Shown: positions 12,581-35,972 of the stretch, piece by piece
How the letters are laid out: the number at the start of each line of letters is the position of its first letter
Numbering within the stretch: position 1 is the first letter of the stretch
Assembly: GCA_030156385.1 (NCBI GenBank)
Contig: JASGMR010000013.1
Location: 1 to 36,105, forward strand
Source: Kosmotogales bacterium
GTDB taxonomy: Bacteria > Thermotogota > Thermotogae > Petrotogales > Kosmotogaceae
DNA: 36,105 nucleotides
Direction: 5' to 3'
Position numbers and translations under genes: made by a program
Notes under the pieces: generated by a model
Seen by the model: only the letters and a program-made list of their open reading frames with translations
What the model was told of the DNA's origin: nothing
Databases searched by the model: none

Positions 12581-13105
12581 CTATTTAAGAATTTCCATAA
12601 GTTCTGGTTTTTGAGCTTGATGTTTGTGTTCATTTCCTTCGTAAACTTTCAACTTTTTCAACATCTGCTGTCCCAAAACATTCTTAGGAAGCATTCTTTT
12701 CACTGCAAGCTTAACCATCTTAATAGGGAATTTTTGTCTCATTTCCTGAGCTGTTCTTTCTTTTATTCCGCCGGGATATCCGGAATGTCTGTAGTACTTT
12801 TTATCAAGAAGTTTGTTTCCTGTTAATGCTACCTTTTCAGCATTTATTACGATCACAAAATCTCCTGTATCAACGTTTGGTGTGTAATAAGGTCTATGTT
12901 TGCCCTGAAGAATTCTTGCAATCTGAACCGCCAGTCTTCCAAGTGGCTTGTCTGCGGCATCGACCACGATCCACTTTCTTTCAAGTCTTTCTCCATTAAC
13001 ATCTTTTATATAAGATTCAATTTTCTCTATTTCACCTTTTCGTTTAGTTTGAACTGTCTTTGAATTTCTTCCGTACGTACAAATAGGCGTTTTATTTGAT
13101 ATCAT
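12581..13105 (-). CDS. rplM: 50S ribosomal protein L13, with N-terminal extension
   Basis: Early-assembly large-subunit protein. The core is standard: [46 protein letters not shown] and [18 protein letters not shown], ending [11 protein letters not shown]. At 174 residues it is about 30 longer than usual. The conserved Trp that normally falls near residue 15 is at residue 45, because extra Lys/Glu-rich sequence lies before it. The ATG at 13105 has GAGG seven bases upstream, so the extension is probably translated. A shorter internal start is not supported by a ribosome site. Confidence 0.96.
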
Positions 13106-13125
13106 ATATATACCTCGCTTTGTAA

Positions 13126-13383
13126 TTATAATGTTTCAGGTTCTGGATTTACACTGACTATTTTTCTGTTTCTTTTAACGGAAAAATGAACCTTCCCGTC
13201 CTTCAAAGCATATAGTGTAAAATCTTTTCCACAACCAACATTTTCGCCGGGATGTATCTTTGTTCCTCTCTGTCTTAAAATAATCGTTCCGGCTTTTACC
13301 GAACAATTTTCTCCTCTTTTAACTCCCAAATAATTCGGATTACTGTCTCTTCCGTTAGTTCTATTGGAACCTTTTCTGGCCAT
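13126..13383 (-). CDS. rpmA: 50S ribosomal protein L27
   Basis: Large-subunit protein near the peptidyl-transferase centre. The 85-residue product shows [37 protein letters not shown] and [11 protein letters not shown]. It begins directly [14 protein letters not shown] and so lacks the Firmicutes-type N-terminal leader that Prp protease removes. This agrees with the absence of a prp gene between rplU and rpmA. Confidence 0.98.
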
Positions 13384-13397
13384 CAGATCACCTCCAC

Positions 13398-13712
13398 CTA
13401 ATACTCTATTTTCTGGATCAGAACATTCGTATAAGTCTGTCTATGACCCTTGATAGTTTTGGAATTTTTCCTTGATCTAAATTTAACGATTCGAATTTTC
13501 TTGCCCTTTACATTTTCCAACACTTTTCCAACGACTTTTACGTTCTCAAGGTAAGGTTTTCCGATTTTCGTATCTTCACCATTTTTGAGCATTAAAACTC
13601 TGTTGAATTCAATAGTGTCACCCTCTTTGTAATTCTTCTGCTTTTCTGTGGCTATAGTAACGCCTTCTTCTACCTTGTACTGTCTTCCTGAATTATCAAT
13701 GATTGCGTACAC
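13398..13712 (-). CDS. rplU: 50S ribosomal protein L21
   Basis: Large-subunit protein binding 23S rRNA. The 104-residue product begins [16 protein letters not shown] and contains [21 protein letters not shown], the conserved RNA-binding segment. The start is GTG with a strong GAGGAGGTG upstream. It is the first gene of the rplU-rpmA-rplM-rpsI operon. Confidence 0.98.
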
Positions 13713-13850
13713 TATCGCACCTCCTCTTTTGCTTATAAATTTGCTGAAAAAGGTACCTTAAAGGTTTTAAAACCCGTTTCAAGCATAAGTAACCTCAGTT
13801 ATTGTATCATTAAATGAGTTCTTTTTTTCCGTAATAAGTAAAATTTATAT
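13713..13850 (-). promoter_or_regulatory. rplU leader with overlapping palindromes and probable operon promoter
   Basis: About 40-60 bases before rplU the DNA holds two perfect palindromes, GGTTTTAAAACC (13763-13774) and AAGGTACCTT (13750-13759), and a third, ACCTTTAAGGT on the minus strand (13755-13765), that overlaps both. In RNA these pairings would exclude each other. A TACAAT hexamer lies farther upstream near 13804-13809 but no convincing -35 was found. Autoregulatory leaders are known for ribosomal protein operons including L21; this being one is inference. Confidence 0.4.
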
Positions 13851-13914
13851 GAATTATATATTTAGGCAAAGAAAAATTATATAAATAAAAATATTATACT
13901 TTTCATATGGCAAG

Positions 13915-13995
13915 CGTTATTAATAATCAGAAAATAGTATAATGAAAACATGTCATCTGAATTATACAAAATTTTTTCTGAAATTCAAAGGAGGT
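13915..13995 (+). promoter_or_regulatory. Promoter region and ribosome site of the S9 peptidase gene
   Basis: A consensus -10 box TATAAT lies at 13938-13943, about 56 bases before the gene. The -35 position 17 bases upstream (13915-13920, CGTTAT) is poor. An excellent Shine-Dalgarno, AAAGGAGGT, lies at 13987-13995, five bases before the ATG. The stretch 13850-13935 is extremely AT-rich and serves both divergent transcription units. Confidence 0.45.
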
Positions 13996-13999
13996 ATGT

Positions 14000-15940
14000 A
14001 TGAAAAAATTGAAAGTGGAAGATATTTACAATTATAAAATTTTAGGCGCTGTAAATTTTATTGACAACGATTCTTTTCTGTTTGTAAAAAAAGTTTTGAA
14101 TGAAGAGAAAAATACTTACGAAAGCAGTATATGGATACATAATTTAAATGAAAAAAGCTTCAAGAGATTAACGGCCGGAGTAAACGATTCCAACCCTGTT
14201 TTTAATTCCGAGAAAAACGAGGTTATTTTTCTTTCCAAAAGGGATAAAGACAAAAAGGAAATTGGATTATACAAAATATCCATGGAATTCGGCGAGGCGG
14301 AGTTGATAAAAGAATATTCAGATTCACCGGCAAACATACAGTGGAAGAAAAAGAATGAAATATTCTATACAAAAAATGAAAGATACGACGGAAAGAAAAT
14401 TGAAAAAGAAGAAGACGATAAAAAAATATATCATTTCAAACATATCCCGTTTTTAGCGAATGGACAGGGGTTTAGGGAGGATGTGGGAAATCATCTTTTC
14501 AAATTCAATCTTAAAACGAAGAAAGAAGAATGCCTGATCAAAGGATTTGTAAATGTCAATAATTTTGATCTATCGGATGACGGCAGGAGATTGGCCGTGT
14601 GTTTGAATAAAAATCCCGAAGATCCCGTGAAAGCTTCCGCATTTTTATACGATTTGAAAGAAGATAAAAAAGAAGAAATCGGTATAGAGGGCTATACTGT
14701 GTCCAAGGTACTCTGGAGTGATAACAGAAGTATATTCATCCTGGCGAGTGATGAATCCAGAGGATTTGCAACGAGTCCCACGCTTTTCATATATGATACA
14801 GATACGAAGATGCTCAAAATGCTTATAGATCCAAAGAAAAATGAATTTTCTCTGGGTAATTCACTGAACAGCGATGTTCTGGGTGTCGCGGGAAGAAACT
14901 TTAAAGTTCATGATAAACGCCTATATTTCATAGCAACGGAAGGGATACATACATCAATTTATTCGATTTCCTCAAAAGCTGAGATAAAAAAAGAGGTCAA
15001 TTTCGAATCCAGTATTACCGATTTCGATATCAGTTCTGCTAACAACGTCGCTTTTATAAGATCTTCAAGCATAACGCCTTCTGAAATTTATTACTATGAT
15101 TATTCTGATTTTTATAAAGTTTCTGAATACAACGACTGGTTTTATAAAAAAGTGAATTCTGAAGTAAAATTCATAAAATTCAATAGTTCCGATGGGAAAG
15201 AGATAGACGGATTGATATTATTTCCCCCGGAATTCGAAGATGAAAACAAAAAATACCCCGCGATTCTGGAAATTCATGGAGGGCCGAGAACCGCTTATGG
15301 TAATTCCTATATGCATGAGTTTCAGGCCCTCGCTTCAAAGGGATACGTCGTTATCGCGTGTAATCCGAGGGGAAGTTCCGGATACGGAAGCGATTTCGCA
15401 GATATTCTCAAGCATTACGGAGAGAGGGATTTCAAGGATATAATGGAGTTCGTTGAGTTTTGTATTGAAAATTATAAATTTATAGATAAAGATAGAATAG
15501 GTGTCACCGGTGGTTCCTACGGTGGTTTTATGACGAACTGGATCGTCGGTCATACTACCTTTTTCAAAGCTGCTGTATCTCAAAGATCAATTTCAAACTG
15601 GTTTTCAATGTACGGTTCCACCGACATTGGCTATTATTTCAGCGAAGATCAGATCGGTGAGGATTATTTGGCCGAGCCGTATAAATTCATAAAGCAGTCT
15701 CCGATATTTTATTCGAAAAATGTGAAGACTCCTATACTCTTCATTCATTCTTTGAATGATTTCAGGTGTGAAGTACAACAGGCGATGCAGTTTTTTACCA
15801 CACTCAAAAGACTGGGCAAAAAAACGGAAATGATACTTTTCCCAGGTGAAACCCATGAACTATCCCGGTCAGGAAAACCTGTTCACCGGATAAAAAGATT
15901 GAATGCGATGATTGATTGGTTTAATAAATATTTGAAATGA
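14000..15940 (+). CDS. S9 family prolyl oligopeptidase / acylaminoacyl peptidase
   Basis: Serine peptidase of 646 residues acting on short peptides, probably cytoplasmic because no signal peptide is present. The N-terminal two thirds fits a beta-propeller lid with repeated short blades (for example NEKSFKRLTAGVNDSNPVF). The C-terminal alpha/beta-hydrolase domain starts around residue 395. The nucleophile is Ser506 in GGSYGGFMTNW; Asp587 (HSLNDFRCEV) and His619 (GETHELSRSG) complete the triad. The oxyanion region is HGGPRTAYGNS. Together these favour the S9C acylaminoacyl-peptidase branch. It has its own promoter, on the opposite strand to its neighbours. Confidence 0.92.
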   Translation: MKKLKVEDIYNYKILGAVNFIDNDSFLFVKKVLNEEKNTYESSIWIHNLNEKSFKRLTAGVNDSNPVFNSEKNEVIFLSKRDKDKKEIGLYKISMEFGEAELIKEYSDSPANIQWKKKNEIFYTKNERYDGKKIEKEEDDKKIYHFKHIPFLANGQGFREDVGNHLFKFNLKTKKEECLIKGFVNVNNFDLSDDGRRLAVCLNKNPEDPVKASAFLYDLKEDKKEEIGIEGYTVSKVLWSDNRSIFILASDESRGFATSPTLFIYDTDTKMLKMLIDPKKNEFSLGNSLNSDVLGVAGRNFKVHDKRLYFIATEGIHTSIYSISSKAEIKKEVNFESSITDFDISSANNVAFIRSSSITPSEIYYYDYSDFYKVSEYNDWFYKKVNSEVKFIKFNSSDGKEIDGLILFPPEFEDENKKYPAILEIHGGPRTAYGNSYMHEFQALASKGYVVIACNPRGSSGYGSDFADILKHYGERDFKDIMEFVEFCIENYKFIDKDRIGVTGGSYGGFMTNWIVGHTTFFKAAVSQRSISNWFSMYGSTDIGYYFSEDQIGEDYLAEPYKFIKQSPIFYSKNVKTPILFIHSLNDFRCEVQQAMQFFTTLKRLGKKTEMILFPGETHELSRSGKPVHRIKRLNAMIDWFNKYLK

Positions 15941-34596: not shown

Positions 34597-34747
34597 AGTA
34601 CATAGAATATTGCAAATAAATGTGCGTAATAAGGTTTATTTTCGTATAATCGGTTTTAATCACAGATAAAATTTTTTTCATAAAATTTTTTCAGCGATTT
34701 AATTATCATTCGATCATTGCTTAAAAGCTGAAGAGCAAAAAAGCTTA

Positions 34748-34771
34748 ACCGCTTAAAAGATAAAAAGCGGT
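34748..34771. repeat. Inverted repeat at the edge of the purine-rich block
   Basis: ACCGCTT (34748-34754) and AAGCGGT (34765-34771) form a perfect 7-bp stem around a ten-base loop. There is no adjacent T run, so it is not an obvious terminator. It marks the left edge of the purine-rich stretch. Confidence 0.45.
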
Positions 34772-34778
34772 ACAGAGA

Positions 34779-34858
34779 ACAGAGAACTGGTAAATAGAGA
34801 ATAGATAAAATGGAATGGGATAGAAAACAGAGAATTGATAAATAGATAACAGGAAAAC
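34779..34858. repeat. Imperfect direct repeat, two 32-base copies, purine-rich
   Basis: Copies at 34779-34810 and 34827-34858, offset by 48 bases, share ACAGAGAA then TAAATAGA and about three quarters of all positions. A looser related stretch with TTAGATAACAG lies near 35132. It probably arose by local duplication. Confidence 0.5.
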
Positions 34859-35001
34859 ATCATAAAAAAACCTAAGATCAAAATGCCAAAAAGCCGAAAG
34901 ACGGTGTCTAGGGTGCAGAAGGAACAACAACCACCATAGGAGAACAATTGGCCAACAATTGAGAAGCGGTTGGGAAGCAATCGTAGAACTATTAACGAGC
35001 G

Positions 35002-35047
35002 GGGGACTGTACCAAGAACCGTTCTTTGGTTCGGGTGGACCGTCCCC
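35002..35047 (+). repeat. REP-like hairpin element, copy A
   Basis: Begins GGGGACTGTACCAAGAAC and ends GTGGACCGTCCCC. The ends pair over nine positions with one mismatch (GGGGACtGT with ACcGTCCCC), and an internal AAGAAC/GTTCTT makes a second hairpin. It shares all conserved blocks with copy B at 35340. Such short palindromic elements with a fixed outer GGGAC/GTCCC stem are typical REP sequences, often moved by RAYT transposases; no transposase gene lies in this window. Confidence 0.7.
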
Positions 35048-35227
35048 TCGAGTGACGGAACAATAGTTAAGCAGCAGGAAAATCGTAGAAAAAAAGGGTG
35101 AAGGATGTATAAGAGAATGGATAGTAGAAAATTAGATAACAGCGAAAAAACAGTGATCGGGAATTGGTGTATAGTGCTTGGAGAAAACACCCGAAAAAAT
35201 GAGTGTGTATAATAAACGGTGTAAACT

Positions 35228-35311
35228 GAAAAAATATTCATATGGAACTCCTAAATATTCTCTCCATCCTTCCGCATTCCAATTAAATCCTAACTCATGC
35301 AGATCATTTAA
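35228..35311 (-). pseudogene. Possible coding remnant
   Basis: A minus-strand frame reads as 28 protein-like residues, including GFNWNAEGWREYLGVPYEY, with no start codon or ribosome site. It lies just before REP-like copy B in the direction of reading. It may be the surviving piece of a gene broken by element insertion. Family not recognised; chance cannot be excluded. Confidence 0.25.
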
Positions 35312-35339
35312 AAATGAGAAAATTGAAAATGGATAAATA

Positions 35340-35384
35340 GGGACAGTACCAAGAACTTGTTCTGTAGTTTGTGTGGACTGTCCC
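35340..35384 (+). repeat. REP-like hairpin element, copy B
   Basis: Begins GGGACAGTACCAAGAAC and ends GTGGACTGTCCC. The outer stem GGGACAGT/ACTGTCCC is perfect, and AGAAC/GTTCT forms the inner hairpin. Relative to copy A, changes are concentrated in the loop; the stem change at position 6 restores a pair that is mismatched in A. Both copies point the same way, 338 bases apart. Confidence 0.7.
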
Positions 35385-35483
35385 GTTTTATCCTAATGAA
35401 AAAATACGATATTGATTATCCTTTTGAATAAAAAACATAAAATCAATTTTTTCAGCATTTATCTAATAAATAAAAAAGATATT

Positions 35484-35531
35484 GGGAGGTTTGATTTGAA
35501 TTCATATTTTCACTTTTTGAGTATTAGCTAA
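35484..35531 (+). other. Ribosome site with 11-codon frame (leader peptide-like)
   Basis: GGGAGG (35484-35489) is followed six bases later by a TTG that opens an 11-codon frame (MNSYFHFLSIS, stop at 35529-35531). The stop is immediately followed by a terminator-like hairpin. This is the layout of an attenuator leader, but no gene follows on this strand, so it may be the relic of one. Confidence 0.3.
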
Positions 35532-35560
35532 AAAGAGGGAAAAACCTCTTTATTATTTTA
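35532..35560 (+). terminator. Terminator-like hairpin
   Basis: AAAGAGG (35532-35538), loop GAAAAA, CCTCTTT (35545-35551), followed by ATTATTTTA. A 7-bp stem with T-rich tail on the plus strand, right after the small frame. Confidence 0.5.
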
Positions 35561-35701
35561 TCAAATGAATAAATTAGAATTTTAAGGTAATCACTGCAAT
35601 TTATATTTTCATTTTCTTGTTAATCAAATAAGAACACAAAGAATACTTCGGGTCATTAGCTCGAAACTTAAAAATCAGTTTTTGATTGGTAAATGAAGAA
35701 A

Positions 35702-35748
35702 AATAAGTGGTGTCTGTCAAGAAGAATCATTGTTCTTTATGATTCTTC
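35702..35748 (+). repeat. GGTGTCTGTC repeat, copy 1, with long hairpin
   Basis: The 17-base block AATAAGTGGTGTCTGTC (35702-35718) recurs at 35863 with one change. Here it is followed by a perfect 10-bp inverted repeat, GAAGAATCAT (35721-35730) and ATGATTCTTC (35739-35748), with an eight-base loop. CAAGACAC near 35782 may pair with the GTGTC, closing a larger structure. Confidence 0.55.
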
Positions 35749-35862: not shown

Positions 35863-35879
35863 AATAAATGGTGTCTGTC
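35863..35879 (+). repeat. GGTGTCTGTC repeat, copy 2
   Basis: AATAAATGGTGTCTGTC, 16 of 17 bases identical to copy 1 at 35702, same orientation, 161 bases away. Here it continues CCCTTTTTTAGTCCC instead of the long hairpin, so only the head of the element is shared. Confidence 0.55.
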
Positions 35880-35972
35880 CCTTTTTTAGTCCCAAAAGTA
35901 CAAACTGATTTTCAAATAAAGATTGCAGAAAATATAAAATATAAAACGATACAGCAGAATTTATGGAGATAT

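Follow-up and report, generated by a model that had tools for sequence, protein, structure and literature searches.

Short hairpins around a transposase relic in a Kosmotogales genome as probable palindromes of a subclass 2.1 RAYT

Two hairpins and a RAYT relic in one contig

The window (the whole stretch of DNA analysed, 36,105 nucleotides) is the entire contig C68 of a Kosmotogales bacterium, whose 2.3 Mb genome is assembled in 138 contigs. Two imperfect hairpins in the same orientation, identified by sequence reading and folding, lie near its end with the relic of a transposase between them, and the surrounding DNA is partly repeated elsewhere in the genome:

34933-35081, no strand, unit overlapping the next one, 81% identity with contig C107
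34956-35104, no strand, 149-bp repeat unit around copy 1, 94% identity with contig C88
35003-35046, plus strand, hairpin copy 1 (type A, 44 nt), GGGACTGTACCAAGAACCGTTCTTTGGTTCGGGTGGACCGTCCC
35245-35338, minus strand, C-terminal relic (about 30 codons) of a RAYT-type Y1 (HUH) transposase, without the catalytic domain
35247-35700, no strand, duplicated block of about 450 bp (RAYT relic, copy 2 and a non-coding tail), closely related to a stretch at about C96:90-535
35331-35393, no strand, copy 2 with the complementary flanks GGATAAATA / GTTTTATCC, which lengthen the stem
35340-35384, plus strand, hairpin copy 2 (type B, 45 nt), GGGACAGTACCAAGAACTTGTTCTGTAGTTTGTGTGGACTGTCCC
35709-35718, plus strand, GGTGTCTGTC, near the edge of the duplicated block, resembling a motif (GGGACAGACACC) upstream of a RAYT in the related genome G003
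35870-35881, plus strand, GGTGTCTGTCCC, the complete form of that motif

The two hairpins have GGGACNGTACCAAGAAC, GTTCT and GTGGACNGTCCC in common. With up to three mismatches allowed, the 17-nt block GGGACNGTACCAAGAAC matched the window at copies 1 and 2 only (0.11 matches expected; two matches in 0 of 100 shuffles), and the proposal of a sequence-only reading that two same-orientation hairpin elements with common blocks lie here was thus confirmed, at lengths of 44 and 45 nt. Read on the minus strand, copy 1 is GGGACGGTCCAC...GGTACAGTCCC and copy 2 is GGGACAGTCCAC...GGTACTGTCCC, and both follow the layout GGGACNGTCCAC - inner hairpin - GGTACNGTCCC. The outer stem has 5 bp; position 6 varies, and next come a GT/AC step and two C-G pairs with a bulged T; the inner stem is separate and also 5 bp long. 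Folded as single-stranded DNA, copy 1 had a z-score of -1.6 and copy 2 of -3.1, the latter reaching -5.8 with its complementary flanks. The feet of the hairpins read GCGG / AATA on the plus strand and CGAG / AAAC on the minus strand, and the tetranucleotides GTAG and CGTC are absent from either foot of both copies.

Comparison of the two copies revealed that the outer stem is the same save for position 6, which is paired in type B (A-T in copy 2) and mismatched in type A (T.C in copy 1), and that at one inner pair both sides change (C-G to T-A) whereas at another G-C becomes G-T. Given the mismatch at position 6 in type A, the earlier statement that paired positions are kept or repaired is right in part only. 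Among the four distinct variants of the genome, two of the five inner pairs show two-sided changes and 95% of structure cells pair; this level was matched by 40 of 500 shuffles and a strong claim would need more than four sequences, so pairing conservation within the genome is weak evidence alone.

The relic is bracketed by the two hairpins, with copy 2 touching its 5' side and copy 1 about 200 bp past its 3' side. A longer version (C96:1-176) lies against another hairpin copy, where the minus-strand translation is ...LHELGFNWNAEGWREYLGVPDDEDFMREFKMKTRSGKPFFSQEKIE; beside copy 2 the frame is the same up to ...WREYLGVP and then diverges. The relic translation aligns with the C-terminal part of proteins of 230-304 aa from seven genomes of the same family. 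A profile search of the assembly found no catalytic domain of this RAYT family, only the two C-terminal relics. The relic had no match in viral, plasmid and phage collections, nor the hairpin in the viral collection. A PF01797 match in contig C13 was considered as the RAYT of the hairpins and rejected as a separate gene; this IS200-type transposase gene (C13:13496-13801; Y1_Tnp, E-value 2e-18) is unrelated to the RAYT relics.

Hairpin copies across the genome

Five hairpin copies were found in the 2.3 Mb genome, two in the window and one each in contigs C88, C96 and C107, all of them near contig ends. The three outside the window are:

C88:7359-7402, identical to copy 1 (type A)
C107:56-99, variant of copy 1 (type A)
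C96:178-222, second copy of type B

No further copies came to light when patterns were searched in the whole genome and 1.83 Mb of contig sequence was scanned, the remaining 0.48 Mb or so being covered by pattern and protein searches only. The number exceeds the two copies that would have spoken against a mobile family, and falls short of the many copies that the sequence-only reading had led one to look for.

Each copy has flanking DNA (150-450 bp) in common with another copy of its own type, so the spread within types went by longer duplication. Types A and B have the hairpin alone in common, and this split is the one feature which suggests that a hairpin moved by itself.

Two other kinds of repeated sequence were observed in this genome. 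Positions 34690-35240 of the window are non-coding and contain the short recurring words TTCTCTGTTCTC, GCTTAAAAGCTGAAGAGC and CTATTGCTTNCC; some 30 stretches like it occur in other parts of the genome, several of them near contig ends. Contig C30 carries at about 13000-14099 a dense array of 12-13 copies of an identical repeat (CTCAGTAAATGTATAA / GAGACCGTTAGGGAAC), which is probably a CRISPR.

Hairpins and RAYTs in relatives and distant phyla

Full-length RAYTs (230-304 aa) are encoded in seven related genomes (G002, G003, G004, G007, G009, G010 and G016). These proteins match the Pfam family Y1_Tnp (best E-value 3e-17), and score up to 72 bits against the REP_Tyr_transpos model, just below its curated cut-off of 80, and 26 bits against the IS200 model. 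Their alignment shows the motifs NHVH, WQ, Y..RNP and SSA, which are those given for subclass 2.1 (PMC6006769). A conserved C-terminal region is present, and the proteins of five relatives gave no Pfam HTH match at an E-value of 0.1 (the published C-terminal domain resembles Bac_DnaA_C / HTH_23 / HTH_28). Placed by motifs, without a tree, the proteins fit subclass 2.1, a subclass that PMC6006769 identifies with RAYT group 1 and, probably, the TIRYT proteins described in PMC3733652. No REP is listed for this subclass (PMC6006769), and the published consensus of the TIRYT inverted repeats is GGGGWSAS (PMC3733652, PMC6006769). Solo C-terminal RAYT fragments of about 55 open codons, resembling the window relic, were also observed near intact RAYTs in relatives (L033 at about 2300-2400 and L028 at about 260-360).

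Of 38 relatives, two matched the window-derived pattern GGGACNGTCCACN{6,36}GTCCC: G003 with nine occurrences and G002 with one. These hairpins are 26 nt long and lack the inner stem, with the same head and tail as the window hairpins; one of the G003 copies lies downstream of a RAYT at a distance of 241 bp, and its orientation with respect to that gene is that of the window copies with respect to the relic. With this pattern alone, a hairpin was near one of three RAYTs (chance about 1%). Near matches of the 17-mer GGGACNGTACCAAGAAC in other relatives were rejected as hairpins, those inspected having no second arm.

Another genus of the family has a sister hairpin, GGG(T)ACAGAC..GTCAGTCCC, set in AAAAT/ATTTT arms beside several RAYTs; five species have between 4 and 42 copies of it in a genome. 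In G010 sister hairpins lie 35-39 bp from the RAYT on both sides, and in G009, G007, G004 and G003 a hairpin lies on one side. Altogether a hairpin was within 300 bp of 5 of 10 intact RAYTs, where 0.07 would be expected. The comparison is circular in part, the sister pattern having been chosen after RAYT flanks were viewed. The genome G012 has 22 copies of the sister hairpin and no RAYT was found in it, making this an orphan family.

A collection of 85,000 species contained no match to a plus-strand gapped pattern with the head GTACC..GAAC. The minus-strand core with a short loop, GGGACAGTCCACNNNGGNACNGTCCC, was found there in WOR-3, Omnitrophota, Acidobacteria, Desulfobacterota, Hydrogenedentota and Abyssobacteria. 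Of 12 distant genomes carrying the 26-nt core, 10 also encode a protein that matches the RAYT profile, RAYTs being common enough for such genome-level co-occurrence to be weak evidence, and at 1 of 23 hairpin loci in the distant phyla a RAYT lies within the few kilobases of sequence examined. One Acidobacteriaceae contig (L234:1916-2347) has three 26-nt hairpins within 450 bp, all in the same orientation. The published GGGGWSAS motif occurs exactly, as GGGGACAG, in the G003 hairpin beside the RAYT and in most distant hairpins, and with one mismatch on the minus strand of each window copy (GGGGACGG in copy 1 and CGGGACAG in copy 2). Among 15 genomes compared, with pattern spacers of 2-26 nt allowed, the long apical loop occurs in this genome only; it exceeds the loops of all relatives found by 18-19 nt, and the extra bases contain a separate stem.

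Covariation in relatives, whose absence would have spoken against the sequence-only reading, is present. In 47 distinct sister hairpins the pair beside GAC/GTC is G-C, A-T or C-G in 44 (mean of permutations 18; 44 reached in 0 of 10000). The 26-nt core was compared in 25 copies of distant phyla: their flanks are locus-specific, and the two arms of a locus are complementary to each other (6.16 of 10 positions match vs 4.39; 0 of 5000 permutations as high), with the limit that these copies are partly non-independent, several loci coming from one genome and many arms being A/T runs. Judged from these alignments, the paired form is conserved across relatives, and the relatives provide stronger covariation evidence than the four variants of the genome itself.

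Origin of the hairpins and comparison with known systems

Taken together, the window hairpins are probably non-autonomous palindromes of REP/TIR type that belong to a subclass 2.1 RAYT (group 1, 'TIRYT'), and the site is probably a decayed RAYT element. The earlier suggestion of palindromes served by RAYT/IS200-type transposases was supported in its RAYT link, by the relic between the hairpins, the relatives' hairpins near RAYTs and the covariation, but not in the expectation of abundance. Likewise, the RAYT gene flanked by the same stem was recovered as a bracketed relic here and as intact genes beside hairpins in relatives, but its catalytic domain is missing from the assembly.

In E. coli, Stenotrophomonas and Marinomonas, TnpAREP enzymes recognise REP hairpins as single strands and cut them (PMC8266576). 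By analogy, the RAYT, as an HUH single-strand nuclease, would recognise the folded hairpin on single-stranded DNA such as the lagging-strand template. It may then cut beside the hairpin and move or copy it. Types A and B would have multiplied internally as parts of longer duplications, and with the catalytic part absent from the assembly their movement has probably ceased. Neither an empty site nor an insertion polymorphism was found, and the mobility of the hairpins is what we infer.

A rather doubtful alternative is that the hairpins are passive relics, the palindromic ends of an ancient transposon which spread by segmental duplication only and at no time moved as 45-nt units in this lineage. 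The 150-450 bp of flank common to each copy and another of its type would agree with it, as would the lack of an intact RAYT and the position of every copy near a contig end. However, the restriction of the A/B likeness to the hairpin calls for either a copying event of about 45 nt or total divergence of the flanks, and sister copies are dispersed in relatives, up to 42 per genome. That the hairpins are small structured RNAs or regulatory RNA elements, duplicated by chance, is far less probable still: they are intergenic and fold compactly as RNA (z-scores of -2.0 for copy 1 and -3.6 for copy 2), but they match no Rfam family, promoter- and terminator-like sites are at shuffle level, none of the promoter-like sites is placed for the hairpins and the sole terminator-like site is elsewhere, and the relatives' versions are dispersed or adjoin transposase genes rather than one regulated gene, so this option of the sequence-only reading was dropped. 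Ordinary GTAG- or CGTC-type REP elements can be set aside almost entirely, for although the palindromes of 44-45 nt fall within the 20-50 nt of imperfect GTAG palindromes, neither tag stands at either foot, there are five copies, and the linked RAYT is of a subclass said to have no REPs.

Returning to palindromes of a subclass 2.1 RAYT, a wider and more tentative proposal is that RAYTs of this subclass come with a hairpin family of their own, marked by a GGGACAG head and spread across Thermotogae, WOR-3, Omnitrophota, Acidobacteria and Desulfobacterota. Its copies would sit in locus-specific complementary arms, as if inserting into the tips of existing hairpins or building a stem at each site, and the window lineage might have kept the outer stem and rebuilt the loop with a second stem. 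Such complementary arms suggest a target preference.

The kind of system, a RAYT with palindromic or inverted repeats, is already known. Among the open-licence papers searched, no description was found of a covarying hairpin family tied to RAYTs of subclass 2.1 in this family of bacteria, or of the long-loop variant. The hairpins offer a candidate substrate, with covariation, for a RAYT subclass that is among the largest and for which published surveys give inverted repeats only and no REP, and a relative's RAYT with a 26-nt single strand makes a simple system in which repeat cutting can be tested.

One of the closest known systems is the terminal inverted repeat of TIRYT, RAYT group 1 or TnpAREP subclass 2.1 (PMC3733652, PMC6006769). 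It resembles the present one in the long transposase with NHVH, WQ, Y..NP and a C-terminal domain, in repeats that in relatives start with GGGGACAG (published as GGGGWSAS), and in moderate copy numbers. It differs in that here and in relatives there are clear single hairpins, some beside the gene, where PMC6006769 lists no REP, and in that this genome has the longer loop and copies by a RAYT relic. Repeats flank the gene in relatives too, but at only half of the intact RAYTs, and in the window they bracket the relic. The GTAG REPs and REPINs of RAYT groups 2 and 3 (E. coli, Pseudomonas) are likewise short imperfect hairpins with stem mismatches and a link to a Y1 HUH transposase, whereas the window hairpins have no GTAG head, few copies and another transposase subclass. 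The CGTC-3 REPs of K. olearia and M. prima (PMC3733652) are also short palindromic repeats of Thermotogae, but they are said to have no dedicated transposase and their CGTC tag is not found in the window. Subterminal hairpins of IS200/IS605 are single-strand hairpins read by a related Y1 nuclease, while the repeats here are dispersed without the gene and the relatives' protein scores far better as a RAYT than as an IS200 transposase.
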